A stretch of 64,000 bases of DNA from Tausonia pullulans. Taxonomy: Eukaryota > Basidiomycota > Tremellomycetes > Cystofilobasidiales > Mrakiaceae. Position numbers and translations under genes: made by a program. The stretch is from positions 620,001 through 684,000 of the forward strand of contig OX637624.1 in NCBI GenBank assembly GCA_951802195.1, read 5' to 3'. This document shows, piece after piece, positions 9,150 to 27,191 of this stretch (the stretch's first letter is position 1; every line of letters starts with the position of its first letter). A model generated the notes under the pieces. It was not told the origin of the DNA. It saw only the letters and a list, made by a program, of their open reading frames with translations, and searched no databases.

Positions 9150-9153
9150 GAGT

Positions 9154-9226
9154 TGCCTCGAGCCTGGCTCGAACAGGCCACCTTACGCTCTTCAGGCGTA
9201 CGCTCTACCAGATGAGCTATCGAGGC
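9154..9226 (-). tRNA. tRNA-Phe (anticodon GAA), no intron
   Basis: Folds as a 73-nt cloverleaf on the minus strand. The acceptor pairs GCCTCGA with TCGAGGC, with discriminator A. The D arm is GCTC/GAGC, the anticodon stem TACGC/GCGTA is perfect around loop CTGAAGA, and the T arm is GCCTG/CAGGC with loop TTCGAGC. The A box lies in the D arm and the B box in the T arm. The LINE stack begins about 70 bp upstream of its 5' end. Confidence 0.93.
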
Positions 9227-9295
9227 AATGAATGCTTGTCGAGGAGACCCTCATCACATATACTGTACCCCAACATAAACTTTAGCCACATGCGG

Positions 9296-9700
9296 ATACC
9301 ACCATCCCGGTGGTTCGACCAACCCCCCCCTCTCACGGCGCCCATCACGCCGTCCGGTCAACCATCCCCAGTGGTTCGACCAACCCCCTTCCGGCCAACC
9401 ACCATCCCGGTGGTTCGACCAACCCCCCCCCTCTCACGGCGCCCATCACGCCGTCCGGTCAACCATCCCCAGTGGTTCGACCAACCCCCTTCCGGCCAAC
9501 CACCATCCCGGTGGTTCGACCAACCCCCCCCCCCCTCTCACGGCGCCCATCACGCCGTCCGGTCAACCATCCCCAGTGGTTCGACCAACCCCCTTCCGGC
9601 CAACCACCATCCCGGTGGTTCGACCAACCCCCCCCTCTCACGGCGCCCATCACGCCGTCCGGCCAACCATCCCCAGTGTTTCGGCCAACCCTCTTCCCAC
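9296..9700 (+). repeat. Tandem repeat array, ~100-bp unit, four copies
   Basis: Each unit carries the blocks ACCACCATCCCGGTGGTTCG, a C-run of variable length, CTCTCACGGCGCCCATCACG, GTCCGG and CAGTGGTTCGACCAACC. ACCACC and GGTGGT can form a hairpin. Units differ mainly in C-run length (7 to 10). The last unit is diverged (CAGTGTTTCGGCC) and leads into a joining sequence ending in TCATGTCCGCTCTCC. The same units recur at ~23284-23560 (about three copies) and ~23711-23880 (about two). Confidence 0.85.
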
Positions 9701-9831
9701 GGCGCCTCGCCCGACGTTCTCGCGCTCGGTCATGTCCGCTCTCCCTCTATCTAGCTACAACTCGCTATCTCTCATAGGGTTACCTCGTTCTCCACGTATA
9801 ACTCATGACTTAAATACAAAAAAAAAAAAAA
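9296..9831 (+). mobile_element. Short non-autonomous element: tandem units plus LINE 3' tail and A-tail
   Basis: Four tandem units of ~100-105 bp (9296 to ~9700) are followed directly by an ~85-bp block that ends in TTAAATAC and 14 A (9818-9831). That last block is the same as the end of the LINE copies at 14267 and 22727. There is no ORF of its own. The unit contains GGTGGTTCGACCAACC, whose GGTTCGA core matches the pol III B box. I read it as a SINE-like passenger that borrows the LINE tail. It could instead be an internally deleted LINE whose tandem units are the LINE 5' UTR; no full-length 5' end is present to decide. It lies closest to tRNA-Phe and has the longest A-tail of its stack, so it is probably the youngest member. 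Confidence 0.7.
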
Positions 9832-10367
9832 GCGGATCGCACGCTCACCCATCGGCCCGATGCCCAGGTCGTCCAAAGGCAAATCTTCCAGCGAGTGCAC
9901 GAGCACCAACCGAAGGACCCCCCCAACGACCTGTCGAACCGGGACCAGACCTGGATGGTTTCCAGCTTGTACAAAAATCCAAGAGGAGGTCACTGAACAG
10001 GCCGACTGAAGCCATGACGGAGGTGACCACACCCCCTGCCCACGCCAGCCCCTCCCACTCCCACTCAGAGCAAGCACCGCGCAATGCGGGCTCGCAACCC
10101 ATTCGCACGCTGAGCGCCCTAGAGGAGGACAACGAGGGGGGTCTGGAGAGGACAGAAGACGGGATGCAGATCGAAGACGAGCATCCACCCCCCACTCCAC
10201 CTCCCCTGTCACCATCGTCCCCCCCACCCCCATCCCCATCCCCGCCATCTTCGCTCCCCCTGAACCCACCCTCCACTCCTTCTCTCATCCCCTCCACGCC
10301 GTCCTCCCAGGCATCCATCGAGCGCACCCTCGTGACCTTGGCTGAAGCCGAGGACATGGAAGAATAA
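9831..10367 (+). CDS. LINE ORF1 protein, C-terminal part (zinc knuckle and acidic Pro-rich tail)
   Basis: The frame opens at the element junction and ends in TAA at 10365-10367. It begins with the end of a zinc knuckle (GSHAHPSARC, the x4-H-x4-C half of a CCHC; the first Cys is lost at the junction). It continues with PGRPKANLPASA, then DGFQLVQKSKRR, and then a Ser/Pro/Glu-rich tail. The knuckle and the RPxANLP segment align with the old copy near 24813-24920, so this really is the end of ORF1, a gag-like RNA-binding protein. A longer frame that reads backwards into the preceding A-tail and tandem units is chance. The stop overlaps the ORF2 start (TAATG). Confidence 0.75.
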   Translation, partial: SGSHAHPSARCPGRPKANLPASARAPTEGPPQRPVEPGPDLDGFQLVQKSKRRSLNRPTEAMTEVTTPPAHASPSHSHSEQAPRNAGSQPIRTLSALEEDNEGGLERTEDGMQIEDEHPPPTPPPLSPSSPPPPSPSPPSSLPLNPPSTPSLIPSTPSSQASIERTLVTLAEAEDMEE

Positions 10368-13300
10368 TGGTGTACAACGATGTACAGATCGTCGCGGCGA
10401 ACATCCAGAGGGTGTTCACGCGAGATCGCGCCCGCAGTCTCCTCCTCTCCCTCTATTCACGATCCAAGGCTGACATATACCTTCTCTCAGAAGTGGCATG
10501 CACAACACCAGATCAGGTAGCGACCTGGACAGCCGAGTGTGAAGATATGGGCTTCGGCTCGATCTTTACGGTCGGCTGCCAGACTGCCATCCTCTGGCGG
10601 CATGCCTCTCGATTCCTCCCTCCCAATACCCCTCCGACTAGGATCAGATCCATCTCCCGCTCCTCCCCCATCCTACGAACCAACCTGACGGATGCCGTTT
10701 TTGTTATCGCCGGCGAAGCCGTCAGGGTGGCTGCAGTCTACGCCCCCTGCCGAGACAGCCAATCGAATGGCCGCTCGACAAAGGAGTTCCTCTCTACTCT
10801 ATCTCGCAAGATACCTGCCCACTCTGACATTCCTCTCCTCCTGGGCGGGGACTGGAACTGTGTGGAGGACAGCTACCTCGACGGGATGAGCCCATTTACC
10901 CAGAACGTGGGGAAGGAGGAAATGTGCCGGCTGGTCCGGGACTTTGCCCTCTCCGACCCATACCGATCCTTATACCCGCTCCAGCGCGAGTACACTAACT
11001 ATACTGGCATCACGCGAGCAGATCGCCGCATCGATCGCTTCTACCTGTCCCCTCTACTCGCTAGCCGAGCCGTGCGACAGCGCTTCCTGCCACGCCCGAC
11101 CGGCCATCTCTACTCTAGCCACAAGCCGATCGCACTCAGCCTCACCTTCCCCGGTGCAATAGAGCACGGTCCCGGATCGTACAAGATCGGAACACACCTT
11201 CTGAAGATTACCGGTTTTGTTGAGTACTTCCTCTACCACGTTCCCAAGTGGTACCAAGATGCGCTCACCGAGATCAGGGACCCCTTCGAGGCCTGGGACG
11301 AGACCAAGCTTCAGATAGCGGATCACGCGTCTGACATCTCAAGACACCTCGCCCGAATGAGCAGAGTGTCAGGCGGGGATCCACACAGGTCGATCCTCCA
11401 TGGCCACGCTCTTCGAGCCCACCTCGAACCAGCCAACACAAGCGAGTATGCCGTCAAGCAGCGACTCAAGATCGTCCGCCAGGCCGACACTATCGCAGCC
11501 CTGCGGCCACTCGACAACCCAGCAGCCACAGCCATCGCAAACAACGAGAGCATTCTAGCTACAGCACACGCCTTCTACTCGACTCTCTATGAGACCAAGA
11601 CGACGCCAGCTGCCGAGCACGCCAACGCCCTCCGATATGTCACCAACACACTCGACAACTCCCAGAGTCGGACCCTCGAGAAACCCTTCGAACTGGACGA
11701 GCTCAGGCGGGCTACGTTCAGATCGAACCGTAACAAGACACCAGGAAGCGACGGGATCCCCGTCGAGTTCTACCAGGCCACTTGGGCTGTCGTCGGCCCG
11801 ATCCTCCTCAGTCTGCTGAACCTCGTCCCGGAGACAGGCCTCCGATCCGCCTCACAGCGCGAGGCCCATATCCATCTCATCTTCAAGAAGAAGGGAGATC
11901 GCGACCAGATTGCCAACTACCGTCCGATCTCGCTCATCAACGTTGACGCTCGCATCTTCTCCCTTGCCATCAACAGCCGCCTGCTCACCGTCGTGGACTC
12001 CCTCATCGACGGGGACCAGACAGGCTTCCTCCCTGGCCGCGACTCGGGTCGCAACATCTCCTCCCTCCAGCTCGCCATTGACGACGAAGACCTCTTGCCT
12101 GGCGTCCTCGCCCAAGTCGACTTCGAGAAGGCATACGACAGAGTATCGCACGACTTTGTTGGCCCCTGCCTCCGCCACATGGGGTTCGGTCCGCGCGCCG
12201 CCGCGTGGATCACCTCAACGATGACCTCCCAGACAGCTCGCCTCATGATCAACGGATGGATGGGCCAAGCCATCGACATCCGGTCTGGTGTCCGACAGGG
12301 CGATCCCGCAGCACCGACGATCTTCGCCCTCCTCCTGGAGCCGCTGGCATGTATGCTCCGCCATCGCCTCCCACCGGCCAATCCACCCCCTCTACATGAG
12401 CGGAAGGTCCTTCTCTTTGCAGACGATCTAAGTATCCGGTGTCGGACCTGGTCGGAGGTCGATGAGGCGACGGTCTGCCTCCGAGAGTACGAGAAAGCCG
12501 CAGCAAGCAAGCTGAACTACCAGAAATCACTCCTTTATCCTCTAGGGTCATGCCGGACGGATGCACCAACGATGTACCACGAATGGCGCGTCCAAACGCT
12601 GTCATTCGACTTCCTCGGCGTTCCATGCGGTCGCACGGTCAACGGTCCTGCTTGCTGGCGAGATGTCATCGGCAAGCTGAAGGCTCGTCTTGCTCGCATC
12701 CCGCTGCACGACCTCCCTCTCCTTGCGCGATGCAACGTCATCAACCAGTACATCTACTCGAAGATCATCTACCTGGACCGCTTCCTGCCGTGCCCAGACG
12801 ATATCCTGGAAGACCTCGAGGCAACGGCCTACAAGTCCCTCTACCGATCGAAACACCACGACGTCAGCAGAGAACGTCTAGAAACCCCTCGAGACCTCGG
12901 CGGCTTCGGCTTCACGCCACTCCGATTCCGGCTCATCAAAGCGCGCGCTCAGTGGGCGGGCGATGTGCTCTTCAGACCGGAGCTCCCCGCATCGATCCGC
13001 ATTCGCAAGCGCATCATCCATACCATGAGCCTCGACCCAGGGGCCTATAGAATGATGACTCGCACCATCTTCCGGGATGGAGAGTTCATCAGAGGACCTC
13101 GGCCCGCCAATTTCAGCTGGCTAGGCGTATTCCTTTCCCCAGTGGAAGGTCAATGGTTCTTCCCAGCCGTCTGGTGGAATGCCATCACAAAGCTCCAAGG
13201 AGCTCTCCCTGCGCGATGCCAGGCTTACCTCCGGGCATGGTTCGAAGAAGTCAGCTTTGACATGAGTTACTGGAATCAAGACCGCTGGAGGAACGCTGTC

Positions 13301-14267
13301 CACTGGATGTCTACGTTCGGTACAGATGGCCAGTTGCGGATAGCTCTCCACCCTGGCCACACAAACCTGGGCCGGCTGAACGTCCCTCGTGAGCCCCACG
13401 GCGCACACAGTCGTACTCTAGCCAACCGCGGCCTCATCATCCCAAAGGGGTGGCAAGACCACTTTCCGGCGCTTACCAAGATCGATTGGAAGCGGCAGTG
13501 GTGCTTGCTCAAGGCCGTGTCCCGAGCGTCGCCCGAAGACGTCGACTTGGCCCACCGCTTCTCGCTGTACAGTCTCCACCCAGGGAAGCATACTGCTGCG
13601 GCATTCCTCGCCGACGGCACCGCTACACCGCACAACAGGTCCAAGCGATGTGCGCTGTGCCTGACGGCCCCCGTCGAGTCCTTCTTCCACCTCTTCGACG
13701 AGCCGTGTCCCGTCGTGGGCGCTATCTGGTCGGCTGCGGCAGCGCATGCCTCTCCTTCACTCCCCTCCCATCCTCCCTCCCTCCAGACGCTTGTCTGCCC
13801 GACACCGTCGCCGCCGAGGGGGGTCTTCCTCTTCCACTGCATCTTTGTTGCCCGGACATGGCGATCCGTCCGGAGGCGGAGGTACAGCAAGATCGCAGCC
13901 CTCGATCCTGTCACGGACGAGGAGATCCGCAAGATCGCGTCTATGATCCGGCAGACACACTGGCAGTCGAGTACGAGGTGGATAGCTCGCAGGGACCAGA
14001 TGGATGGAACTGCGGTCGGCGCCGACATCGATCCTGGGTGACAAGCAGGTCTGGGGTGGGGAAGTATGGCTGGTCCATAGCCACTGCTTGATGTAGCTGG
14101 TCATCTTAACATCTTACCTCTTTAATGGGCCTATGTCCACACCCATATATTGCTTTCCTTCTACCTGTTATTTACTTTCGCTCTCCCTCTATCTGGCTAC
14201 TACTCGATATCTCTCATAGGGTTACCTCGTTCTCTACGTATAACTCATGACTTAAATACAAAAAAAA
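9832..14267 (+). mobile_element. LINE (non-LTR retrotransposon), 5' truncated in ORF1, ORF2 intact
   Basis: The largest copy. It starts in the second zinc knuckle of ORF1, runs through a complete ORF2, has a ~225-bp 3' UTR, and ends in CTTAAATAC followed by A. The 5' junction abuts the A-tail of the short element before it. Domain order is ORF1 CCHC, then ORF2 with APE-type endonuclease, reverse transcriptase and a C-terminal CCHC, with no RNase H. That layout fits L1/Tx1/DRE- or Tad-like elements; I cannot place the clade without a tree. The absence of breaks in ORF2 suggests a recent insertion. Confidence 0.9.
10367..14041 (+). CDS. LINE ORF2: APE endonuclease and reverse transcriptase, 1224 residues
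   Basis: Nicks target DNA and reverse-transcribes the element RNA (target-primed reverse transcription). Residues ~1-265 are an APE-type endonuclease: AANIQ (Asn), LLSEVA (Glu), VYAPCR, LLGGDWNCV, RADRRIDRFYLSP and SHKPIALSL with the catalytic His. Residues ~440-750 are the reverse transcriptase: KTPGSDGIPVEFY, HLIFKKKGD, NYRPISLINVDARIFS, QTGFLPGR, QVDFEKAYDRV, RSGVRQGDPAAP, LLFADDLSI with the catalytic DD, and FDFLGVPCG. Residues ~1095-1115 hold a CX2CX9HX5C zinc motif starting CALC. There is no RNase H domain. The frame is uninterrupted from ATG to TGA with every key residue present, so it may encode an active enzyme. Its ATG sits inside the ORF1 stop (TAATG). Confidence 0.95.
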   Translation: MVYNDVQIVAANIQRVFTRDRARSLLLSLYSRSKADIYLLSEVACTTPDQVATWTAECEDMGFGSIFTVGCQTAILWRHASRFLPPNTPPTRIRSISRSSPILRTNLTDAVFVIAGEAVRVAAVYAPCRDSQSNGRSTKEFLSTLSRKIPAHSDIPLLLGGDWNCVEDSYLDGMSPFTQNVGKEEMCRLVRDFALSDPYRSLYPLQREYTNYTGITRADRRIDRFYLSPLLASRAVRQRFLPRPTGHLYSSHKPIALSLTFPGAIEHGPGSYKIGTHLLKITGFVEYFLYHVPKWYQDALTEIRDPFEAWDETKLQIADHASDISRHLARMSRVSGGDPHRSILHGHALRAHLEPANTSEYAVKQRLKIVRQADTIAALRPLDNPAATAIANNESILATAHAFYSTLYETKTTPAAEHANALRYVTNTLDNSQSRTLEKPFELDELRRATFRSNRNKTPGSDGIPVEFYQATWAVVGPILLSLLNLVPETGLRSASQREAHIHLIFKKKGDRDQIANYRPISLINVDARIFSLAINSRLLTVVDSLIDGDQTGFLPGRDSGRNISSLQLAIDDEDLLPGVLAQVDFEKAYDRVSHDFVGPCLRHMGFGPRAAAWITSTMTSQTARLMINGWMGQAIDIRSGVRQGDPAAPTIFALLLEPLACMLRHRLPPANPPPLHERKVLLFADDLSIRCRTWSEVDEATVCLREYEKAAASKLNYQKSLLYPLGSCRTDAPTMYHEWRVQTLSFDFLGVPCGRTVNGPACWRDVIGKLKARLARIPLHDLPLLARCNVINQYIYSKIIYLDRFLPCPDDILEDLEATAYKSLYRSKHHDVSRERLETPRDLGGFGFTPLRFRLIKARAQWAGDVLFRPELPASIRIRKRIIHTMSLDPGAYRMMTRTIFRDGEFIRGPRPANFSWLGVFLSPVEGQWFFPAVWWNAITKLQGALPARCQAYLRAWFEEVSFDMSYWNQDRWRNAVHWMSTFGTDGQLRIALHPGHTNLGRLNVPREPHGAHSRTLANRGLIIPKGWQDHFPALTKIDWKRQWCLLKAVSRASPEDVDLAHRFSLYSLHPGKHTAAAFLADGTATPHNRSKRCALCLTAPVESFFHLFDEPCPVVGAIWSAAAAHASPSLPSHPPSLQTLVCPTPSPPRGVFLFHCIFVARTWRSVRRRRYSKIAALDPVTDEEIRKIASMIRQTHWQSSTRWIARRDQMDGTAVGADIDPG

Positions 14268-14584
14268 TAACTTCCCAGCAGTCGTAGAGCACTAGGTGGA
14301 TGGCTGGCAGTGACCAGATTGCTGGGACTGCGGCCGGCGCCGACATCAATCCTGGGTGAAAAGCAGGTCAAGGGAGATGAAATATGGCTGGTCCATAGCC
14401 ACTGCTTGGTGTAGCGGTCATCTAAATATCTTACCTCTTCTAATGGGCCTATGTCCATGACCATTATTTGCTTTCTATCCACCTCTTCTTTCATTTTCGC
14501 TCTCCCTCTTCCTAGCTACGAGTTGCTATACCTCATAGGGGTACCTCGTCCTCTACGTATAACTCATGATTTAAATACAATAAA
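14268..14584 (+). mobile_element. LINE 3' tail fragment, second subfamily
   Basis: Starts near the last codons of ORF2 and continues through a 3' UTR ending ATTTAAATACAATAAAG. It is almost identical to 24160-24441 but clearly different from the UTR of the copy just before it (for example TAGCTACGAGTTGCTATACC, GGGGTACC). It is therefore a separate, strongly 5' truncated insertion of a second subfamily. Confidence 0.8.
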
Positions 14585-14770
14585 GTAGATACAACGAAAG
14601 ACGAAGTGCGAGAGGTCGCATCCATCATCCGGCACAAGCATCGACCGACGGATCCGAGAGAGTGCGAAGGTCAACGCGCTGGGGCTGGGGATGGTGCTGG
14701 TGCTGGCGGTGGTTAAGGGGATGATGGTAATGATGGCGGTAGTCCATGACTTACCAAAAATTAACTATAA
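14585..14770 (+). mobile_element. Older LINE 3' relic
   Basis: Resembles the end of the old copy at ~26430-26600: a GAAxGACGA segment, CATCCATCATCCGGC, then a GGGGATGATGG-rich stretch. No clear tail remains. It lies farthest from tRNA-Phe in this stack and is the most decayed. Confidence 0.55.
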
Positions 14771-15310
14771 TGATAGAGAGAGATGTTGCCGCTCGAGCCT
14801 AGCGGCCCACCGAGGAGCATGGCTGGACCGCCGATTCATCTCCCCCCATCCCACCCCCTTGCCTTCATGTCATTCGACTGATGGAAAAGGCTAAATTTAA
14901 GCTGGATGAACCGATGGGGATGTCCTTGCCTTCTCTAATTCAGCGAAACAAGTGCAACATGGAGGATGCAGCGCGAGATCAACGGTGTGTAACGGTGTTT
15001 GAGGTGTCAGTAAGTCTAGATGCTAACCTCTTTCCTCCTTTTATGGATAGAAATGCTCAAGCTTTCATCCCCGCCAATGCCAAAGTTCCAAAGGACTTCA
15101 TAGTCATACACAGGGGGACGAGAAGGAGAGAGGAAGCAAGCGATGCCATGCAAGCCGCCTCTTTCATTATCCTCCGCCCTCAAGTCGAGGGAGATCGAGG
15201 GCCGAGCCCTTCTAAAAGCAAGCTCGACGTCGACCTCGCCACTCCTTCCTTTTCGACAAACCTTTTCAAGAGATGTCTGTCTTCCCCCCTCATCCGGTCA
15301 ATACCCCGCC
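14771..15310. other. Spacer before the ferredoxin gene, no gene seen
   Basis: No supported coding frame. The part next to 15310 should hold the 3' UTR of the ferredoxin gene. Confidence 0.4.
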
Positions 15311-16422
15311 CTAGTGCTTCGTCGGCTTGGCCCCCTTTACAAGCACCAGCAGAGACACCGGTCAGCATCTTGCGCGTGGGGGAAAAAGGAGAGGACGAAA
15401 ACACACATCGACAAACATGTTCCTCGTCGCGCTCGGGAGCGTCACGGTGATGCCGTCGATGGCCTTCTCCATCTTGACCTGGCAGCCGAGCCTCGATCTG
15501 TCCGCACACGCGTAAGATCCGTCAGACAATAGTACAGGCAGAAACAAAAAAGAGTGAGGTGGGAGAGGGAGACAGACGTGTCAGTCAGACCGAACGCCAA
15601 GTCGAGCATGTCGTTCTCCTCGTCCGTCGGCTCCTCGATCCGGTCGTAGAACTCCTCAGGGAGGATGACGTGGCATGTCGAGCAGGCGACCGAGCCTTCG
15701 CAGGCGCCTATCATCGAACATAGGCGGGTCAGTCAGTAGGTATAGGGAGAGAGAGACGAGACAACGAAAGAGCGACCCACCCTCGAGGTCAATGTCATAC
15801 TCATGCGCGATGGAGAGAATGTCGTCACCCTCGTTGGCTTCAACGGTGCGGATAATGTCGCCGTTGGACTCGCGGAAGGTGATCTTGAGGCTGCAGAATG
15901 AGCGAAGGAATGAGCAAGCGCGCGCGGTGGAGGAGACAAAGAACGACGCGTCGCAGCTCAGGGATTGCCCCGGGATAGCGACGAATGGCAATGATGTGTT
16001 GACGCACCCAGTACCAGGCTCCGGGCGCTCAATGTCTCCATGCCAGACAACTGCAGAGAGCACCCCATCAGAATCATAGCGGTAGAACGAAGCGGTCCAT
16101 CAGGTCAGCCGACAGTCAGCCCGACCGAAGCCGACGAATGAGCGGAGAAAGAGACGGACGGACCGGGCGAGCTCGAGAACTGCCGTCGAACGGCACGCGA
16201 GAAGTCGCCAGGCCCCGGAACGAATGTAGACGTCGAGAAGGCGCGCCATCTGTTCAAGGAAGAGGAAAGGGAGAGCCGTGACCGCGCGGCAATGATAGTC
16301 CGGCTGCACGAGACGGTCGAAGCCGAGATGGAGGAGGAAGAGCAAGAGCAAGAAGTGGAGAAGCGGCCGGCGAGGGGACGGGTGGAGGAGGGGCGAAACA
16401 TGGTTGTCGTCGTGGCCATCAT
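15311..16422 (-). CDS. YAH1: Mitochondrial [2Fe-2S] adrenodoxin-type ferredoxin
   Basis: Carries electrons in the mitochondrial matrix for iron-sulfur cluster assembly and for heme A/ubiquinone hydroxylations. The N-terminus [20 protein letters not shown] is rich in Ser, Thr and Arg without acids, as expected of a mitochondrial presequence that extends ~100 residues. The mature domain starts [20 protein letters not shown]. After an intron comes [20 protein letters not shown] with the first three cluster cysteines (CX5CX2C), then [20 protein letters not shown] with the fourth, and [16 protein letters not shown] tiny last exon (15334-15311) adds GAKPTKH and the stop, in phase 0 from a GTGTGT donor; without it the reading would run on into CFRPLLFPP, which is not a family ending. 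The gene is divergent from URM1, with only 185 bp between start codons. Confidence 0.9.
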
Positions 16423-16607
16423 TATGGAGATCGTCAAGCAGAGAAGCCACACGAGGCGATGGGAGGAGAAAGACGGAAGAGAGAAGGTGGTCGAATCAGG
16501 GAAGAAGGCCGTCTCTGCTCGTTTTCTTCGAAGCCGCCAGTCCGCGAACCTCAACTGTCGGGCCCGACCGACGACAGCTGCCCTCCTCTCCCTCGCAACC
16601 ACCACCA
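16423..16607. promoter_or_regulatory. Compact divergent promoter, YAH1 and URM1
   Basis: The two start codons, on opposite strands, are only 185 bp apart, so both genes must share this short promoter and 5' leader region. No specific binding site is recognised. Confidence 0.6.
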
Positions 16608-17506
16608 ATGGCAGATGCATCACAGCAGATCAACGGCCTCGGCTATCTGACTCCCTCGTCGGCCGCCAAGGCGGTATCCTCAGCCGATGCGGCTGTTTCA
16701 ACGAACCCCCCGGCGTCCAACGATGGCTCGACGATTGGTGTCCAGGTCGAGTTTGGGTGCGTTAGAAGTTTCCTTTACCAGGCAGGTGTGCTATAACACA
16801 GGATTCTTCCCTCTATGCCACAGCCCATCCAATGAAGGGAAGGGCATGTGAGAGGGACGAGGCAAGGGCCGAATGGCGCGCTTGACAGGCGTGCGCGTCA
16901 GACGCATCCCTCCCGCCATGCACACCAGCCTCATGCGCTGCTGCTCTCTGGATCTCGTATCCCAAAACATGTCCTTTTGTACTTTTCCCTGAGACTGATC
17001 CTCTTTCTGTCGCTTATATCACGCAAACAGTGGCGGCCTCGACCTTCTCTTCTCACGCCAACCGCGCCACAATCTCCGCATTCCAGCTTCCTACCCTTCT
17101 TCCTCCTCAACCATCAGCTCCAACTCTCCCTCATCACCGCCAACAATGCGCCACCTCATCGAATACCTCGCGAAGAACGTCCTCCGTGAGAGGGAGGAGC
17201 TGTTCCGTGAGGGGGAGACAGTGTGCGTCTCACTCTCTCTCATACACTCTATGCTGTCGTTGTTGCGCCCTACTCTGACATGACCGATCTGCTCCCTGGG
17301 CCTTCTCACTTCAGCCGACCAGGGATCCTCGTCCTCGTCAACGACAGTGCGTCCTTCCCTCTTGCTTTCTCTATCCTCTCTCACATCATACCTTGACTAA
17401 TCAGAGGCGATGTAATCTAGTCGACTGGGAGCTGGAGGGCGAGCTCGCTTGTGTCCTCGAGGACGGCGACGAGGTGGTGTTCATCAGTACGCTCCACGGG
17501 GGCTGA
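16608..17506 (+). CDS. URM1: Ubiquitin-related modifier Urm1
   Basis: Sulfur carrier for 2-thiolation of tRNA wobble uridine and a ubiquitin-like protein modifier, cytosolic. The Urm1 fold begins at VQVEFGGGLDLLF, made across a 274-bp intron (16757-17030) whose splicing restores the conserved FGGG. It continues with [49 protein letters not shown] and FISTLHGG. The C-terminal Gly-Gly that becomes the thiocarboxylate is exactly at the stop (17504-17506). Four exons. Two oddities: a ~43-residue Ala/Ser-rich extension before the domain ([18 protein letters not shown]) that Urm1 normally lacks, and a Ser-rich insertion of ~25 residues after the first strands ([13 protein letters not shown]). Both need a cDNA, but they lie in open frame between good splice sites. 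Confidence 0.9.
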
Positions 17507-18030
17507 TGTCGATCTTATGTTCTGGATCGATGGAACGGAATGGTTCACGAGATGAGAGACGCAGGCCGCTCAAGCGTGGCCGGAGAAAGAAGACGCTCGC
17601 TCGTGCGAAGAGTCGTTCTGACTGAAGGAGGCTTGAACTCAGGAGGAACCAATTTAGTCGAAAGGAGTCCTGTTGTATAAGAGGTGCTAGCGCACGGGGC
17701 CGATTGGCTGGGTAAAGGATGAAAGAAAGAGTAGGCCCAATGCCAAGACGAATGAAGGCGAAGACAACTATTGCAGAGGAGGGGCAAGAAAGAAGAGAGG
17801 GAAAACGCCGAGAATTGGGGGACCAAAGGGGGGAAGGGGAATAGCAATGAGCCTTAATCTCAGCGCGATCAAGGAGGGAAGAAGTGAAGAGAGATTTTCT
17901 ATGAAGTGAGGAGAAGCGGAGGGCGGAGGACCGCGAGAATAGAGAGATACGATAGAGACGACAAAGGGAGAGGGTGGGAGGCAGGGAGTGGGCATACGAA
18001 GGAGGACGGACAGACAGAGAAACGCAGCCT
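17507..18030. other. Spacer between convergent URM1 and LCB2, no gene seen
   Basis: About 520 bp, purine-rich on the + strand. Open frames on the minus strand here run on past the LCB2 stop or are shadows, without family features. Confidence 0.45.
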
Positions 18031-20961
18031 TTACGACCGGACAAGCTCAGTTGCGCGAGCGATGACCTCCTCGACCTTCCACCGACCTCCCGCAGGCCGA
18101 CCGTGCTTGAGGTCAAGGACATCTCCAATCTCGTCGCAGGCTCGAAGGATCAAATCGATGTCGTGCTTGGTGTGCGACGATGAGACGCAGAACCGGACGC
18201 GGGACGAGACGAGCGGCGTCGCCGGATAGCCGACGACAACCGTGACAATCGGCGTCTTGTCCTCGCCGATCCGATCGCACATCATCCGTGAGAAGAGCGG
18301 CATCTTGGCCGGGTTGAACGTGAGCATGGGAACAATCGGCGAGTCACGGTGGCCGTAGATGATGAACCCCATTTTGCGCAGACCCGTCGAGAGGTATCGG
18401 GCGTTGAAGGCCAGCCGGCGGAGTCGCTCCTGACCTTCGGTTCCGTTCAGGAGAGAAGGGGGAAGACGAAGCCAGGATGGGAGAAGCGATGCCGGGGCAG
18501 GACCGTAGGTAGAGCCGGTAGAGGTGAGCTCGTCACCGAAGGGCGAGTATGAGGGGGCGCCGAGGGCCAAATCCTCGCCGCTGGCAAAGGCGACGTTCTG
18601 CTCTGAAGCAAGGAGAGGCGGGGCGATGCCCATGATGGAGCCCATTGAGGCGATGATCTGCGTGAGGACTGCGGGTGACATAGCCTCGGCGTAGACCATG
18701 GCATGTGACCGATGACGGAGACGCTGCATGAGTTCGCGCGAGCCGGCGATGTAGCCTCCAGCAGCGCCGAACGACTTCGTAAAGGTACCCATAAGAATGT
18801 CGACGTTGGACGGGTGAATGCCAAAGTAGTCGCAAACACCGCGGCCATTCGGACCAAGACCGCCGATCGAGTGAGCCTCGTCGATGTAGAGGTAGAACTG
18901 GACAGAGGATCAGCTGTTGTCGTTAAAAAAGAGAGCTTGGCCAAGCCCACCTTGTACTTCCGCTTGAGCTCGATCATTCGCGGGAGGTCGACCATGTTTC
19001 CCTCCATAGAATAGATACCCTCGACGACAACAAGAATCTTCTTCCACGGCCGGTGAGTCCTCGGCTGTCCCTGGGAGATGACCTCCCGGAGGAGCGACTC
19101 AAGGTCGACCATGTCGTTGTGTTTGAACTGCCGGACGGACGCGCCCGAGAGCCGAACGCCGAACCGGATCGACGCGTGGTTGAGCTCGTCCGAGATGACG
19201 AGGCAGCCCTTGCCGACGAGCGCGGGCATTGTCGTCGAGTTGGTCGCAAAGCCCATCGAAACGACTATTGAATCATCCTTGCCGAGGAACCGGGCGACGA
19301 GCTTCTCCGCCTGTACGTGCAGGTCGAGCGAACCAGCATCGAGTCGGGCACCCGCGGCCGAGACACCGTACCGGCGAATGGACTCTTCGACGGCGTCGGC
19401 GCATCCTCCCGTAGACGAGGCGAAACCAAGATAGTTGTACGACGAGATATTGAGCGAGCGCGTCTTTTCACCAGTCTGGACGAACGTGTGGTTCGAATCG
19501 GTCGACGTTCGGTCGTACGTAAGGATCGTCCGGCCGGGGACGGCCGTGACAGGCTTGGAGAAGCAGTCGTCGAGCCGTGTCTTGAGGCGACGGGTGTAGA
19601 ACGAGTCAAAGTCTGAGTTGAGGGCGGCGTAGCCCTGGCAGCAAGAGGATGATGAGACAGGGGTCAGCGGGGGTTTACTGAGAAAGAGGGGATAGAACGA
19701 GGTCAGAGCGACCGGGCTCTCGAGCCGGTCGCTCTTGCTGCCGCCGGCAGTAGTCATGGGCGAGAGCTCTCTAACCACTCATCGAGAATTCTAAGAGGGC
19801 GGTGGTTAAAGATTCAAAGGCGCAGAGCAGGCAACTCACATTGTGCGGCATCAGGTCCTTGTAGTACGACGGGTAGAACCGCTTGCCGAAAAAGTCCCTC
19901 AGGTGGCCGATCGAGATGAGCAGCATATACCTGGGCGAGCGAACATGTCAGCGAGCTACGGCGAGGGGAGAGACCGAGGATGCTAGCACTCACGAGAGGT
20001 AGGTGCACCAAAAGACGTAGATTGGCGGCTCTTCGTCCGAAGGCTGGATGGGGGCCATGGGCGAGTACTGTGCGAGCGAGCAGGATGGGAGGAGCGTGTT
20101 AACTCACGTAATCTACAAGCGTGAGGGGCAATATCTGTGACGAAGAAGGAGGCGGCCAGCAGGGCACCAGCGTCTACAGTCGAAAGAGCCTAACCAATAA
20201 GCGGAGAGGCGCACGAGCGTACGGGCTCGACACCCAAACAAGCCCTCGTCTGCGTTGCATTGAGAGACGAGGCGTTCGGATCAAGAGTGCATTGTCATCG
20301 GCACGCTGGAAGACTGGCAGGGTTGGCTCTCAAGGCCGAGCAAGCAAGGGCCGAGAAAGACATGAGGACGCCTCGGAGGCCGTTCACCGCTCGACCCTCG
20401 GCTGAGTGATTAGGCGGAACGCGGGAGAAAGCAGAGAGCGAGGATGTCCAAGCGCGACGACGCCCCGTCCTCGCTCTCTCCTCTCATGCGCACAAACATC
20501 TCGACGGGCGGGCGAGAAGAGTGCAGCAAGCGAAAGCAGGTGCAGCAGCAGATATGGGAACGGGTCCAACGCACCTGGCTCGTATGCCGAAAGTCCTGGT
20601 TCGCACACCAACCAAACTCCTCGTGCTTGAATACCGGGACGCCGACCTTGTCAACTGGATAGGGCACGACCGGGTGCTGGAGTGGCGAGTAGCCCTTGTC
20701 TCCCGGGCTCAGGGACCTCGTCGGCGACACCGAGGATGCCGTCGTCGGCTGACCCTTGCCCGTCACGGCGGCACCCTGCTCATGGGACCGGCGGGCGACG
20801 CGGAGGAGCGAGTCGTGGGCCGTGAGCGGCTCGGTCTGGAGCGTTGCCGACGAGGGTTTAGACCGGAGCGAGAGGGAGGGGAAGCGCGATGTCGAGGACG
20901 AGGGCGAGGTCGGGGAGGCCGCTGAGGCATGCTGCTTGGTGGACGTCTTGGTGAGGCCCAT
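18031..20961 (-). CDS. LCB2: Serine palmitoyltransferase subunit 2
   Basis: PLP-dependent catalytic subunit that condenses serine with palmitoyl-CoA, the first step of sphingolipid synthesis, in the ER membrane with Lcb1. The N-terminus is a long Ser/Thr-rich cytosolic region (MGLTKTSTKQHASAASPTSP). A conserved block follows: FKHEEFGWCANQ, YSPMAPIQPSDEEPPIYVFW and a membrane segment YLSYLLLISIGHL. The fold-type I transferase domain shows SYNYLGFA, GARLDAGSLDLHVQAEKLVA, DELNHASIRFGVRLSGA, VEGIYSMEGNMVDLP, YIDEAHSIGGLGPNGRG and GTFTKSFGAAGGYIAG, where the Lys (codon ~18775-18777) binds PLP. The C-terminus VEEVIARATELVRS ends at 18031. All key residues are present. The match in order and length to fungal Lcb2 is clear. 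Confidence 0.93.
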
Positions 20962-21763
20962 CGTAGCGGTCGTCGAGAGGAGGGGGTGGTGCGGGAGGGA
21001 GCTCAGGGTGGGAGTGGGAAGAGGAGGAGCGCAGGAGCAGAGGGAAGCGACGGGTTGCGGTGGGCAGGGCTAGAGGCTGGGCAGGGGCAGGGGCAGGGGC
21101 AGCAGGGTCCGGCTAAGCTTGAAGGTTGGGGTGATTGGTCGTCAATGAGGAAACAGATTGAGAGGAGGGACGGGCGGACGCGTCGTTCCTCAAGCTTCCT
21201 CAGCTCGTTCCCCTTTCCCCACCCTGCCGCATTGCTCCTCGCCGCGCTTGTTCGGCGGGCGACCGTGCCTGGTGGCCGACCCGCTCGAGTTGGTCAGCCT
21301 CGTTCAGTGATCATTTCGAGGGTGAAGACACTCTTGTCAATTTTGCCTTGCTCTCTGTCCCCTCGACACCATCGTCCGCCGTCTATTAGTCGTTCGGATC
21401 TGGTATCTCTCTTCCTTAGCTCAGGAGGTGGTGCCCTTCCCTCCTTGGGAGAATCGAGCGAGCGAGAAAAAACTACTTCCCGTCGCGCATTGATGGGACA
21501 ATATCCCATTACGGCGTCGGCTTCTAGAGACGCGCACGGAAGACGTAAGCCGAACGAACACACACCCGTCCTCGTCATCTTTAGACGGCCGTCGTCAACT
21601 GAGGCCGAGGCCCTCGTCTATGGCAGGATGGGAGATAGAATCACACAGCAACGAGGGGGGCTATTGAGTTCTTCCTCAACAGCTCGGGTGTCTCCGCACA
21701 CGCGCATGAGCCATCAGGCGGGACAACCTACAATAATGATAGAACAAATCTACGTGTAGGAGG
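20962..21763. promoter_or_regulatory. Upstream region of LCB2
   Basis: About 800 bp between the LCB2 start and the tRNA-Asn terminator. On the LCB2 strand it is purine/pyrimidine-skewed. Overlapping open frames on the + strand look like chance low-complexity frames (Gly/Arg-rich), so no gene is called. Confidence 0.45.
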
Positions 21764-21769
21764 AAAAAA
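21764..21769 (-). terminator. Pol III terminator of tRNA-Asn
   Basis: Six T on the minus strand, 3 bp past the tRNA end. Confidence 0.75.
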
Positions 21770-21772
21770 TAT

Positions 21773-21845
21773 CTCTCAGCGACGGGTTCGAACCGTCGAC
21801 CTACAGATTAACAGTCTGACGCTCTACCAACTGAGCTAGCCGAGA
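21773..21845 (-). tRNA. tRNA-Asn (anticodon GTT), no intron
   Basis: A 73-nt cloverleaf on the minus strand. The acceptor TCTCGGC/GCTGAGA has one G-T pair and discriminator G, normal for eukaryotic Asn. The D arm is GCTC/GAGC. The anticodon loop is CTGTTAA on stem TCAGA/TCTGT (outer T-T mismatch). The T arm is GACGG/CCGTC with loop TTCGAAC. A truncated LINE begins 91 bp upstream. Confidence 0.93.
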
Positions 21846-21935
21846 AACGGGAACAATGAATTATTCGACATGGATGTTTCCGCTCTACTGATTTAGATAC
21901 CCCACTTTTTATTGCTTCATGTTCATTTAAAAAAT

Positions 21936-22727
21936 AAGCGGCAGTGGTGCTTGCTCAAGGCCGTGTCCCGAGCGTCGCCCGAAGACGTCGACTTGGCCCA
22001 CCGCTTCTCGCTGTACAGTCTCCACCCAGGAAAGCATACTGCTGCGCCATTCCTCGCCGACGGAACCGCTACGCCGCACAACAGGTCCAAGCGATGTGCG
22101 CTGTGCCTGACGGCCCCCGTCGAGTCCTTCTTCCACCTCTTCGACGAGCCGTGTCCCGTCGTGCGCGCTATCTGGTCGGCGGCTGCTGCACGTGCCTCGC
22201 CTTCGATCCCCTCCCATCCTCCCTCCCTCCAGACGCTCGTCTGCCCGACACCGTCGCCGCCGAGGGCGGTCTTTCTCTTCCACTGCATCTTTGTAGCCCG
22301 GACATGGCGATTCGTCCGGAGGCGGAGGTACAGCAAGATCGCAGCCCTTGACCCTGTCACGGACGAGGAGATCCACAAGATCGCGTCTACGATCCAGCAG
22401 AAACACTGGCAGTCGAGTACGAGGTGGAGGGCAGGCAGTGGCCAGATGGCTGGTACTGCCATCGGTGCCGCCATCGATCCCGGGTGAAAAACAGGTCAGG
22501 GGTGGGGAAGTATGGCTGGTGGTACATCGCCAATGCTTGGTGTATCTGGTCATCTTAATATCTTACCTTTTTCTAATGGGCCTATGTCCATAACCCATCT
22601 TTTGTTTTCCTTCCATCCCTACTTTCATTTTCGCTTTCCTTCTATCTAGCTACGAATCACCATCTCTCATAGAGTTACCTCGTTCTCTACGTATAACTCA
22701 TGACTTAAATACAAAAAAAAAAAAAAA
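21936..22727 (+). mobile_element. LINE copy, strongly 5' truncated (last ~790 bp)
   Basis: Matches 13490-14267 of the large copy from AAGCGGCAGTGGTGC onward, with only scattered substitutions by eye. The end of ORF2 is still an open frame to TGA at 22485-22487, including the CX2CX9HX5C zinc motif. The same 3' UTR ends TTAAATAC plus 15 A. The fresh A-tail and high similarity point to a recent insertion. This is typical LINE 5' truncation. Confidence 0.9.
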
Positions 22728-23139
22728 TTATGAACACGCACCGTCCTAATCCCAGGGAGCAGGTTTGATCACAATAATGTTCATTGTGTGGGTGTAGACT
22801 TGCTGAGAAATGACGCGTTCTGGGATATATATATATGTACGCTCACCTCCGATGTATCACAGTCGTTCTTCTTTCAAGTTGCAGATGATTCAATGGTTTT
22901 AATCTTCTACCTTTTAAATGGAAACGCCTTGGTGGATGTAGTCTCGAGTTGACGCCGCTCGGGATCAACCGACACATCCGTGCTAATTCGCTGTCCAACC
23001 CTGGCCAGAGGCGGTGCTTCTTCCATTGGAAGAAAAAGAGAAGCGTAGCCCAGCAGGTACAATAGAGATGAACTTCTTGTCTATTCGTGACGTTGGCACC
23101 CCAAACAAAACAAATACATGTTATGTCCTTGGAACATAA
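22728..23139. other. AT-rich spacer, no gene seen
   Basis: About 410 bp with a short TA run (ATATATATATAT near 22830) between the LINE tail and tRNA-Val. No frame or element recognised. Confidence 0.45.
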
Positions 23140-23211
23140 TATCAGGACCGGGAATTGAACCCGGGTCTAGGCGGTGTTAACACCTTGTACTAACCATTAT
23201 ACGATCCCGAC
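23140..23211 (-). tRNA. tRNA-Val (anticodon AAC), no intron
   Basis: A 72-nt cloverleaf on the minus strand. The acceptor GTCGGGA/TCCTGAT has two G-T pairs and discriminator A. The D arm is GTAT/GTAC, the anticodon stem AGGTG/CGCCT with loop TTAACAC, and the T arm CCGGG/CCCGG with loop TTCAATT. A34 would be read as inosine. The nearest T-run on its 3' side (TTTTG) is about 30 bp away, a weaker terminator than for the other two tRNAs. Confidence 0.9.
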
Positions 23212-23283
23212 GGAATATATGTTAAACTAGTCATAATTAAATGACTAGGCATGTTGCTATAATTTTCTCCATGGTTTTGTCAA

Positions 23284-23710
23284 ACCACCAACCACCATCC
23301 CGGTGGTTCGACCCCCCCTCTCACGGCGCCCATCACGCCGTCCGGCCAACCATCCCCGGTGGTTCGACCAACCCTCTTCCGGCCAACCACCATCCCGGTG
23401 GTTCGACCAACCCCCCCCCCCCCTCTCACGGCGCCCATCACGCCGTCCGGCCAACCATCCCCGGTGGTTCGACCAACCCTCTTCCGGCCAACCACCATCC
23501 CGGTGGTTCGACCCCCCCTCTCACGGCGCCCATCACGCCGTCCGGCCAACCATCCCCAGTGGTTCGGCCAACCCTCTTCCCACGGCGCCTCGCCCGACGT
23601 TCTCGCGCTGGGTCATGTCCGCTCTCCCTCTATCTAGCTACAACTCGCTATCTCTCATAGGGTTACCTCGTTCTCCACGTATAACTCATGACTTAAATAC
23701 AAAAAAAAAA
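23284..23710 (+). mobile_element. Short non-autonomous element, copy 2
   Basis: About three tandem units followed by the LINE-type tail and 10 A (23701-23710). Same structure as 9296-9831, with one unit fewer and slightly different C-runs. It begins about 73 bp upstream of tRNA-Val. Confidence 0.7.
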
Positions 23711-24023
23711 CCATCCCGGTGGTTCGACCAACCCCCCTCTCACGGCGCCCATCACGCCGTCCGGCCAACCATCCCCAGTGGTTCGACCAACCCTCTTCCG
23801 GCCAACCACCATCCCGGTGGTTCGACCCCCCCTCTCACGGCGCCCATCACGCCGTCCGGCCAACCATCCCCAGTGGTTCGGCCAACCCTCTTCCCACGGC
23901 GCCTCGCCCGACGTTCTCGCGCTCGGTCATGTCCGCTCTCCCTCTATCTAGCTACAACTCGCTATCTCTCATAGGATTACCTCATTCTCCACGTATAACT
24001 CATGACTTAAATACAAAAAAAAA
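23711..24023 (+). mobile_element. Short non-autonomous element, copy 3
   Basis: About two tandem units plus the same tail, ending TTAAATAC and 9 A. It starts inside a unit (CCATCCCGGTGG) directly after the A-tail of the copy before it, so it looks 5' truncated and was probably separated from the tRNA by the later insertion of copy 2. Confidence 0.7.
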
Positions 24024-24441
24024 CCGGACATGGCGATTCGTCCGGAGGCAGAGGTACAGCAAGATCGCAGCCCTCGACCATGTCACTGACGAGGAGATCC
24101 GCAAGATCTCGTCTACGATCCGACAGACACACTGGCAGTCGAGTACGAGGTGGGTGGCTCGCAGTGCCCAGATTGCTGGGACTGCGGCCGGCGCCGACAT
24201 CAATCCTGGGTGAAAAGCAGGTCAAGGGAGATGAAATATGGCTGGTCCATAGCCACTGCTTGGTGTAGCGGTCATCTAAATATCTTACCTCTTCTAATGG
24301 GCCTATGTCCATGACCATTATTTGCTTTCTATCCACCTCTTCTTTCATTTTCGCTCTCCCTCTTCCTAGCTACGAGTTGCTATACCTCATAGGGGTACCT
24401 CGTCCTCTACGTATAAGTCATGACTTAAATACAACAAAAAA
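24024..24441 (+). mobile_element. LINE 3' tail fragment, second subfamily
   Basis: Starts at CCGGACATGGCGATTCGTCC, equal to ~13853 in the ORF2 of the large copy, and carries the end of ORF2 and the second-subfamily 3' UTR (near-identical to 14300-14584). It ends TTAAATACAACAAAAA. Confidence 0.8.
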
Positions 24442-26780
24442 CCAATACGCGTCACATATGACTTACAACAACACCCATGGAATGTATATGTGGGAGGGCT
24501 CGCTCCGGAGAACTTTGAAGAAGGGCCCGGAATGGAGGACGAGATCTGGAGGCAGGTGGCTGTCTCTGGTGACGGTGCCGTCGTGCTTTAGCACCAATAT
24601 GGCCCCAGAGTATCCGGCGCTCCCAGGTCGAGTCCAGGTCATGCACCACTCTCTAGATCTTAGGGGGTGTCCAAGAATGACGCCTATTTCCTGACGTTCA
24701 CAAGTTGGACGAATGTCGAGGTCATTTCCAAACCTGTCCTGCCTGCCTCCGCCATAATAGTCCCCTCTCGCTCATCGTCAACTTACTGCTAGCTACTATT
24801 GCCACTCGATGGAGCACACGAGCGTCAAGTGCTCCGTTGTCTCGATGTGCGGAGGATGCGGGCTGCGATCCCGTCGCTCTAATCGCTGCTTGAGCCGTCC
24901 CACGGCCAACCTCCCAGTCGGAGCGCAAGCTGCGACCGAGAAAGCGCCCGTAATAGTGGTCGCCGAGAGCTTCCAGCTTGTTTTGACAAGCAACCCGAAC
25001 TCGAACAAGCAGGCCTCAACCGGTTCCATCGTGCCTCAGACTAATACATTCCCAGGTAGCCATCGAGCACACACTCCTGATCACGGCCTTAAGCCGGGGA
25101 CACGAAAAAACAGTAGTGTACCACGATATCCATACGGTCACGGCGAACATTCAACGGGTATTTACGCGAGATCATGCTCGCAACCTTCTCCTCCCTTTCT
25201 CTCGCTCCATCACTGACCTTCATCCACTCTCTGAAGTGGCATACACAATACCCAAATATATGGCGGTGGATTGGACAGCTGAATGCGAAGATCCTGGCCT
25301 CGGCTCGATCTTCATTGTCAGCCACTAGACTGCTATCCCCTGGCGTCACACCTCTCGTTTCTTCTCTCCCGATGCCCCTCCGACCATGATTAACGCCGTC
25401 TCGTCATCTCGTCCTCCTCATCCAAACCTTGTCTCAATATCATAGACGCCGTTCTCACTGTCGCTGCCGAGCCTGCCAGGGCCTTCGCCGCCTATGTCCC
25501 CTGTCGGAGTGGCTCTTCGACGATGACATTCCTCCCTGCTCTCTACCACATGCTCCCTACTCGTTCATCCATTCCTCTCATGCTGGACGGTGGCTGAAAC
25601 TTTGTAGAGGACGGAGAATTCGACGGGATGAGCATCAACCAACAATCCCGGAGGGGAGCAAATGAGACCAATCGCTTGCGCGTTCGAACTTTCAGACCCA
25701 TTCCGTGGCCTGTACGCACGACGGAGTGTGTACATCCAACACACTAGCGTCATGGGGGGAGACCGCCGCCTTGATTGCCTCCACCTCTCCCCTTTGCTAG
25801 CTAGTCGAGCCGTACACCGGAAGACCTTGCCGCGCCCACGTCGCCCCCTCTTCTCCAGCCACAACCCCGCCGAGCTCTGCCTCACCATCTCAGGCATAAC
25901 CGACCACTGCATGGCCCTGGCTCATACAAGATCGGCACCCACCTCTTCAAGCTCAGATATTCATTGAGTCCTTCCTCCGACACACACCGAGCTGGAATAA
26001 TGATGCGTTCGCAGATCTCGATGACCCCGTCCAGGCCTGGGACGAGCCCAAGCTCTATGTCAGGACGTCGATCTCGCCCATCGTTTCTTCCTCCATGTTC
26101 CCCCACCCGCACCCTGGCGAACATACCGCGCTAGCCTCGCTTGCGGGCATATAATTACGCCGCACAACAATAACACGCAACACGTATTCTGTCTCGCTGC
26201 CCCGGTGGAGTCCTTCTTCTATCTCTTCAACGAGCCCTGTCCTGTGGTGCGTGTTGTCTGGACTGCTACCTCAACACACATCTCTTCCCCGCTCTCCTCA
26301 GATCCCCCTTCCGTCCAGACGCTGGTCTGTCCAACACCCTCGCCCCCGCGGCATATCCTTCTCCTCTATCGCATCTTCGTTTCCCAAGTCTGGCGCCTCT
26401 TCCGCCGCCGACGGTACAACAAGGTCAAGGACTTCATCGATATCACGAAGGACGAGATCCGAAAGGTTGCACCCATCATCCGGCGTAAGCGTCGGCAGAT
26501 GGACATGAGAACACAATCAGGTCAACACCCTGGGACTGGGGGTGATTCTGGTGGTGGACAAGGGGATGATGGTAGCGATCGCAGTGGCAATGGCTGAAAA
26601 CTGAGAAAGGTCGGTGAGTGACGGCGGTCGGCATGTGACTTTGGTCTTTCCTCTCTTCACCTCCACATTCCTCCCTTCCCCTTCCCCTCCCCCTCCTCAT
26701 TCATGTACTCCCTCCCTCTCGCGGTCTCTCATAGGGGCATACCGCTCTCTGCGCTTAATCCAAGACTTAAATACAAAAAA
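24442..26780 (+). mobile_element. Old, internally deleted LINE copy
   Basis: A diverged relative of the large LINE. Near 24813-24890 it retains two degenerate ORF1 zinc knuckles: YYCHSMEHTSVKC has lost its first Cys, and CGGCGLRSRRSNRC has Arg for His. SRPTANLP follows, as in ORF1 of the large copy. Endonuclease remnants run from ~25116 (TANIQRVFTRDHARN, LSEVAYT) to ~26050 (AWDEPKL). The reading then jumps to the region just before the C-terminal zinc motif (DVDLAHRF, then SFFYLFNEPCPVV), so about 2.2 kb with the whole reverse transcriptase is missing. Stops and frameshifts break every domain. It ends at TTAAATAC and 6 A. It is the oldest and most distal member of the tRNA-Val stack. Confidence 0.75.
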
Positions 26781-27191
26781 GGTGATAGGAGCACTTCTCC
26801 TTGAGAGAACAGAAAGGAAAACAGAACAATTAAAATCAAAATCCAATGAAGCTGAATCTCTCACTGGCAGTTAACGAAGTTGCCGGGCCCTCGTCTGCTT
26901 CCTCCCACTTACTACGGTTGTTAGACTTTTGGAGTACGGCTATTGGATGGTTTTATTACTAAAATTTCGATAATCAACACACGTGCGCAGTCGAGTTCTT
27001 TTCCGTTTTGCAGCCTAAACTGTAAACGTTGATTTGCTAACGCAACCATTTCTCATGCGAATTACGTCGAGGCAGGATAACCCGTCTTACTGTCGCCTCA
27101 AGTATTGAAGCCGACGTTGAATGCTGGTCTCCCACCCCATGGGCTTCAGTCACCTGCTCAATCACAAATACAGATGCAAAAGTCTCCACGC
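26781..27191. other. AT-rich spacer, no gene seen
   Basis: About 400 bp between the old LINE tail and the 3' end of the NAA35 gene. No supported frame. Confidence 0.4.

Follow-up and report, generated by a model that had tools for sequence, protein, structure and literature searches.

Why should all tRNA genes in a stretch of fungal DNA have a retrotransposon at nearly the same distance upstream? This question is raised by a window of 64 kb from Tausonia pullulans (by the window we mean the whole stretch analyzed, positions 620001–684000 of contig C5; the genome comprises 23,855,473 bp, or 23.86 Mb, in 21 contigs). In agreement with its preliminary description, we find three minus-strand tRNA genes in the window: tRNA-Phe(GAA) at 9152–9227, tRNA-Asn(GTT) at 21772–21846 and tRNA-Val(AAC) at 23140–23211. 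Upstream of each lies a stack of sequences from a family of long interspersed nuclear elements (LINEs), which is young and present in high copy number, and from its short partner. Our analysis indicates that this L1-like LINE and the short element very probably insert by target-primed reverse transcription about 65–105 bp upstream of tRNA genes, likely via the RNA polymerase III (Pol III) complex.

The tRNA genes of the window were called by ARAGORN run without introns, and tRNA-Asn was also given by an Rfam tRNA search. LINE sequence had been reported 70, 91 and 73 bp upstream of the three genes; the distances measured here are 70, 89–90 and about 76 bp (starts at 9298, 21936 and about 23288, plus strand). 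A search with three queries (a LINE copy, a stretch of the short element and the 5′ part of the full-length LINE; E up to 1e-4) gave family matches confined to the three stacks (9298–14585, 21936–22722 and 23288–26781), which bears out the reported absence of the family from the rest of the 64 kb. The elements are on the plus strand at all three genes, as reported. One correction concerns the sequence beside tRNA-Phe (9298–9832), which belongs to a separate short element and does not represent the LINE 5′ end.

Position of the elements relative to tRNA genes

The sequence ACTTAAATACAAAAAA from the 3′ end of the element was found in 316 exact copies genome-wide, and its reversed control in none. 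The first 100 of these tails (contigs C1–C4, and C5 to 452 kb) were placed and formed 50 same-strand clusters. A 5′-side stretch was taken for each cluster, a few neighbours were added, and a second set was drawn from 38 copies of the second open reading frame (ORF2) of the LINE. A boundary was counted if at least 150 bp beyond it had been read (n = 70, the three stacks of the window being excluded), and ARAGORN was run with introns allowed.

At 61 of the 70 stacks an ARAGORN tRNA gene was located 39–119 bp from the boundary (median 81, interquartile range 74–91, 10–90% range 68–97); by set, the counts were 45 of 53 for the tail census with neighbours and 16 of 17 for the ORF2 set. The nearest ARAGORN tRNA gene beyond the boundary was on the opposite strand, with its 5′ end toward the element, in all cases (63/63). 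Among the 61 targets there are 24 anticodon labels and 16 isotype labels (the label SeC probably being a miscall), and 28 of the targets contain introns. Position, orientation and breadth of isotypes are direct observations, and the distances and the uniform orientation rule out chance placement. In the part of the genome examined there is a clear peak upstream of tRNA genes in one orientation, a result that the preliminary description had named as support for targeting, and the copies examined neither lie mostly away from tRNA genes nor lack a favoured distance or strand.

It should be mentioned how some loci entered these counts. A tRNA was already known to adjoin L083 and the 3′ side of L010 when they were taken in, and the count without them is 59 of 68. 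For several clusters (L047, L070) the stretch was taken beside a tRNA known beforehand, kilobases from the tail, the intervening DNA being only partly read. Two members of the ORF2 set, C15:463238 and L122, displayed no element sequence and were entered in no count.

A survey from the tRNA side gave a similar picture. Of 897 candidates in an Rfam tRNA search, 63 were scored, and 27 of the 63 are in the part of the genome with tails listed; these 27 genes were found without regard to the element and, rather than being a random sample, have high scores and belong to few isotypes. Family sequence was present 65–147 bp upstream, on the opposite strand, at 22 of the 27. One of these, C4:1437729, is included at 103 bp only through a match to an old subfamily, the LINE itself being 179 bp away.

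Target duplications and the order of insertions

Both ends were readable in 26 copies. In 15 of them the 5′ flank and the sequence past the A-tail agree over at least 5 bp, where re-pairing of the flanks predicts 1.4 such copies (for at least one of the 15, L098, the agreement may stem from element sequence and not from a duplication); in 11 they agree over at least 6 bp, with 0.36 expected. These short target duplications, which are observed directly, together with the A-tails fit target-primed reverse transcription.

The stacks also have an internal order. In stacks with multiple tails (n = 24), the tail on the tRNA side was nearer its closest relative than the most distal tail in 18 cases, farther in one and tied in five. 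Among 35 adjacent pairs, the proximal tail was the less diverged in 22 and the distal one in three, with 10 ties. This order of divergence is again a direct observation and indicates that new copies tend to land between the tRNA gene and older copies.

Exceptions and alternative explanations

Seven of the 70 boundaries had no ARAGORN tRNA gene beyond them (L038, L079, L080, L057, C8:993306, L043 and C4:110803). Beyond the boundary of L038 lies a permuted tRNA-Gln gene, described below. The inverted pair L079/L080 (C4:629.5–630.2 and 640.6–641.4 kb) has a tRNA match that scores 24.8 bits, short of the Rfam value of 29, and at L057 a tRNA-like stretch with a box B was recognized by eye. At C8:993306 the LINE is cut in ORF1 and abuts a stretch (L025:700–1330) that appears by eye to be a copia-type gag, an arrangement that is probably a nested insertion. 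The tRNA-like gene of L079/L080 also has a sub-threshold YrlA match and is located just before a possible further tRNA 5′ half (by eye). At L043 (C1:1969560–1970260) the short element stops about 25 bp before a TATA-like stretch, possibly a novel Pol III unit.

Several observations weigh against insertion directed by tRNA genes or limit the reach of the counts. (i) No tRNA-like gene was seen in the 1.8 kb read at C4:110803 (L011 with L074), no gene was recognized by ARAGORN or Rfam at L043, and two boundaries, an inverted-duplicate pair, are 260–261 bp from a tRNA. (ii) The boundaries L056 and L059 (C2) form an inverted-duplicate pair that shares its flank, as do L079 and L080 (C4), so the counts are not wholly independent. 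(iii) Five of the 27 tRNA genes (C1:1767854, C2:249422, C2:1546042, C2:1653954 and C2:1733434) had no element in the 0.3–1.6 kb examined, or up to the next tRNA. (iv) The boundary was not reached at five loci of the census (L036, L037, L053, L062 and L085) and six of the ORF2 set (L099, L105, L106, L108, L121 and L029), and the census covers part of the genome, 100 of the 316 tails. (v) The flanks were aligned on BLAST boundaries, which may deviate by several bases, and a short nick-site preference could be blurred. (vi) At other Pol III genes, with which the preliminary description had proposed a comparison, no copy was detected: neither in about 300 bp upstream of each of three U6-like loci (the third below the Rfam cut-off) nor at one 5S locus, although these numbers are small.

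The last of these points bears on a wider form of tRNA-directed insertion, compatible with it, in which the element would read a general feature of Pol III units or open chromatin. The insertion at L038 is located upstream of a permuted tRNA-Gln gene in which the promoter boxes are reversed, and that at L043 upstream of a TATA-like stretch with no recognized gene; both are in line with such an explanation. The U6-like and 5S loci without copies speak against it, and we consider it possible but rather doubtful. As a separate observation, the U6 pair L130/L131 (C1:1926557, minus strand, and C1:1974943, plus strand) looks by eye like an inverted duplicate kilobases apart.

Much less probable is recognition of a DNA sequence or an A/T-rich structure upstream of tRNA genes by the apurinic/apyrimidinic endonuclease (APE) of the element, with no role for the Pol III complex. 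The flanks are indeed moderately A/T-rich (0.51–0.60 per 10-bp block), but when 70 flanks were aligned on their approximate boundaries, the information content stayed below 0.25 bit at every position of the final 60 bp. Since no motif is seen there, it is probably the tRNA gene, or factors bound to it, that determines the site.

Joint spread of tRNA–LINE units by segmental duplication, with the fixed distance inherited from a few events, is favoured by the inverted duplicates L056/L059 and L079/L080 and by a row of six equal-score units at C2:364–399 kb. However, the 61 targets have 24 anticodon labels, and truncation points, distances and target duplications vary among loci. This variety of isotypes, truncation points and target duplications rules out duplication as the main cause, and the explanation as a whole is very improbable. 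Weakest of all is the view that insertion is random or weakly biased and that purifying selection spares only tRNA-adjacent copies. It is favoured by the compact size of the genome (23.86 Mb) and by a proposal that the flanks of tRNA genes are safe sites (PMC5006619), but selection is not expected to produce an interquartile range of 17 bp and a single orientation in 63 of 63 cases.

A possible mechanism of targeting

With insertion directed by tRNA genes as the preferred reading, the following mechanism can be proposed. The position would be dictated by the tRNA gene: an element protein (ORF1p or ORF2p) would most likely contact the Pol III initiation complex (TFIIIB/TFIIIC), and this contact would place the APE nick immediately upstream of the complex. 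The new copy would have its 5′ end facing the tRNA and be oriented opposite to tRNA transcription. Each insertion would tend to fall between the tRNA and its predecessor, and the stacks would grow on the tRNA-proximal side and keep a record of their order. We infer the protein contact and the factor that is read with reasonable, though not full, confidence, because of the precedent of the Dictyostelium element TRE5-A, in which ORF1 binds TFIIIB and mutation of box B abolishes targeting according to the available text of a 2018 review (PMC5911963).

A broader hypothesis, toward which we lean only slightly, is that a fungal LINE evolved targeting of the Pol III complex independently of Dictyostelium, together with a partner resembling a short interspersed nuclear element (SINE). 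Because the element would read the assembled complex, its insertions would map Pol III initiation sites, including that of a transcribed permuted tRNA-Gln gene, and the stacks would record the order of insertion.

Structure of the LINE and its short partner

Full-length LINE copies begin at ACCACCACCAGGTCAATCC. This start is 1944 bp before ORF2 in the copy at C5:220 kb, in which the 5′ untranslated region (UTR) is 34 nt long and ORF1 encodes 636 aa; an ORF1 of 636 aa is present in two further copies. By eye, ORF1 contains two CCHC knuckles, and it matched no family in Pfam. The two frames overlap as TAATG, ORF2 encodes 1224 aa, and the 3′ UTR terminates in ACTTAAATAC(A)n. The LINE of the window at 9833–14268 lacks its 5′ part, the truncation falling within ORF1; the complete 5′ end was seen at other loci.

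In Pfam, ORF2 matches RVT_1 with 89.4 bits and Exo_endo_phos (APE) with 21.7 bits, under the cut-off of 24.5, and no RNase H was found. Its best match in the PDB is human L1 ORF2p (155 bits), R2-type proteins scoring at most 58 bits. Marks of non-LTR (long terminal repeat) retrotransposons are present, namely RVT_1 and the L1 ORF2p match, A-tails and variable points of 5′ truncation. Candidate marks of the L1/Tx1 group are a putative APE domain ahead of the reverse transcriptase (the match being just under the Pfam cut-off), no Pfam RNase H and a C-terminal CCHC (by eye). Judged by these features of its sequence, the element is a non-LTR retrotransposon and appears L1-like. ORF2 was free of stops in 34 of 38 scored copies (the best 38 of 384 candidates), and the scored copies other than that of the window are 95–98% identical to the window ORF2. 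Its relatives comprise 20 proteins among 8000 candidates scored, the best-scoring one with 28% identity.

The short partner is composed of repeat units of about 100 bp and a 3′ end in common with the LINE. A 20-base piece of the unit has 317 exact matches in the genome and can recur within one short element. In the window the unit (9298–9697 and 23288–23896) repeats GGTTCGACC, which by eye resembles the beginning of a Pol III box B; the short element might carry an internal Pol III promoter.

Six LINE copies with equal ORF2 scores were found in a row, 6.1–6.3 kb apart, at C2:363997–401116 (L003–L008, L048). Short elements lie in between, and the row is upstream of one tRNA-Ile; it may represent recombinational amplification.

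Comparison with known elements

In the table of tRNA-adjacent retrotransposons in the 2018 review, the non-LTR entries are from dictyostelids (social amoebae) only (PMC5911963). No tRNA-targeted non-LTR element of a fungus was described in the titles and abstract openings of the literature that we searched, from which subscription papers were mostly absent.

The comparison with TRE5-A of Dictyostelium discoideum, made in the preliminary description, proved apt. In the account given by the review, TRE5-A is a non-LTR element of the L1 clade (its Table 1) and, like the fungal LINE, has two ORFs, an ORF2 with APE, reverse transcriptase and zinc finger, and an oligo(A) tail; both are located upstream of tRNA genes in opposite transcriptional orientation (PMC5911963). 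They differ in host, Dictyostelium in one case and a fungus in the other, and in several other respects: (i) TRE5 inserts at about 44–54 bp (PMC5911963), or 40–54 bp when counted from the mature tRNA, as against the 68–97 bp (10–90% range) with a median of 81 seen here; (ii) the UTRs of TRE5-A consist of A, B and C modules (A/B and B/C), whereas the 5′ UTR of the fungal LINE is 34 nt in the full-length copy measured and the repeat units are in the short partner; (iii) TRE5-A ORF2 requires a −1 frameshift, whereas the fungal ORFs overlap as TAATG; and (iv) TRE5-A also targets 5S genes, whereas the single 5S locus of the fungus has no element. Compared by published descriptions, the fungal element appears to work like TRE5-A; we do not claim that it belongs to TRE5, since distance and UTR structure differ.

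NLTR-B of Polysphondylium pallidum is also a non-LTR element upstream of tRNA genes, at 39–64 bp from the mature tRNA, but its coding sequence is divided into three separate ORFs and includes an RNase H domain, which Pfam did not find in the fungal ORF2 (PMC5911963 for NLTR-B). Ty3 of Saccharomyces cerevisiae integrates upstream of tRNA genes through TFIIIB, but is an LTR retrotransposon that uses an integrase and lands 1–4 bp from the start site, so both enzyme and distance are different (PMC5911963). Zorro3, directed to poly(A) sites, and Cnl1, directed to telomeres, are likewise fungal non-LTR elements with biased sites, but tRNA targeting is given for neither in the available text of PMC7175516.

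With its hundreds of copies, a fungal case would mean that the safe haven used in dictyostelids was also reached by LINEs in a compact genome far removed from theirs. Provided that the host can be grown and transformed, it would also allow one to study how Pol III genes are located by a LINE, and the stacks supply an internal order of insertion.

Permuted tRNA-Gln genes

The survey of elements also exposed a family of circularly permuted tRNA genes, to which we were led by the boundary of L038 without an ordinary tRNA. At L038:181–270 (C1:751.7 kb), L020 and L133–L145, tRNA-Gln(CUG) is arranged in the order 3′ half, short linker, 5′ half and T-run. All 12 genome matches to a pattern for the 5′ half were permuted, with a linker of 8–30 nt and a run of at least four T within 30 nt afterwards. 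In all 12, the seven acceptor pairs are formed (G-T counted); the acceptors have three sequences, one of them common to 10 genes. A pattern for the 3′ half gave 21 matches, and the 15 that were read were all permuted, the stretch at L145 stopping before the anticodon. A pattern for tRNA-Gln in the normal order, with a gap of up to 30 nt, had no match in the genome, longer introns being possible.

When the halves of three representatives were rejoined, ARAGORN called tRNA-Gln(ctg) with a cloverleaf. It speaks against this interpretation that the minimum-energy fold of the rejoined halves is not a cloverleaf. The distance from the end of the short element to the 3′ half at L038 is 108 bp; including a weak match to the old subfamily reduces it to 46 bp. 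If the Pol III complex is indeed what the element reads, the permuted tRNA-Gln gene marked by this insertion would be actively transcribed. A 2014 review, as far as its available text goes, puts the number of permuted tRNA genes at 34, the sources being six unicellular algae and one archaeon (PMC3978253), and no title in the literature searched dealt with such genes in fungi.

Organization of the three stacks in the window

All elements of the three stacks are on the plus strand. The Phe stack begins with the short non-autonomous, SINE-like element at 9298–9832, delimited by tandem repeats, repeat families and sequence: four units of about 100 bp (9298–9697), a LINE-like 3′ end and an A-tract. 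Sequence matches place next to it the LINE copy at 9833–14268. The ORF list, Pfam and the PDB match assign to this copy an ORF2 at 10367–14041 (1224 aa) with a putative APE-type endonuclease (weak match), reverse transcriptase and C-terminal CCHC (by eye). Its conserved 3′ end, ...ATAACTCATGACTTAAATAC(A)n, is at 14203–14268, as defined by repeat families and sequence, and has exact copies genome-wide. A second 5′-truncated LINE copy is stacked behind the first at 14284–14585 (repeat and sequence matches), and an older LINE fragment at 14588–14740 forms the far end, recognized by repeats D20 and D16 with matches to 26439–26510 and 26530–26585.

Upstream of tRNA-Asn, sequence matches delimit one 5′-truncated LINE copy (21936–22727). 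The Val stack consists of two tandem short elements at 23288–24024 (repeat families, tandem repeats and sequence matches), a 5′-truncated LINE copy at 24025–24443 (repeat and sequence matches) and, at its distal end, a decayed copy of an old subfamily with the same 3′ end motif at 24444–26786 (repeats D12, D13, D15 and D17). The decayed copy has four matches to the LINE with 70–76% identity, and its tail is 0.65 identical to the nearest relative.

The window also encodes a serine palmitoyltransferase, which supports a basidiomycete as the host. Of its 5105 relatives, 120 were listed; the named organisms in this list are basidiomycetes, apart from one crustacean entry, and Mrakia frigida comes first.

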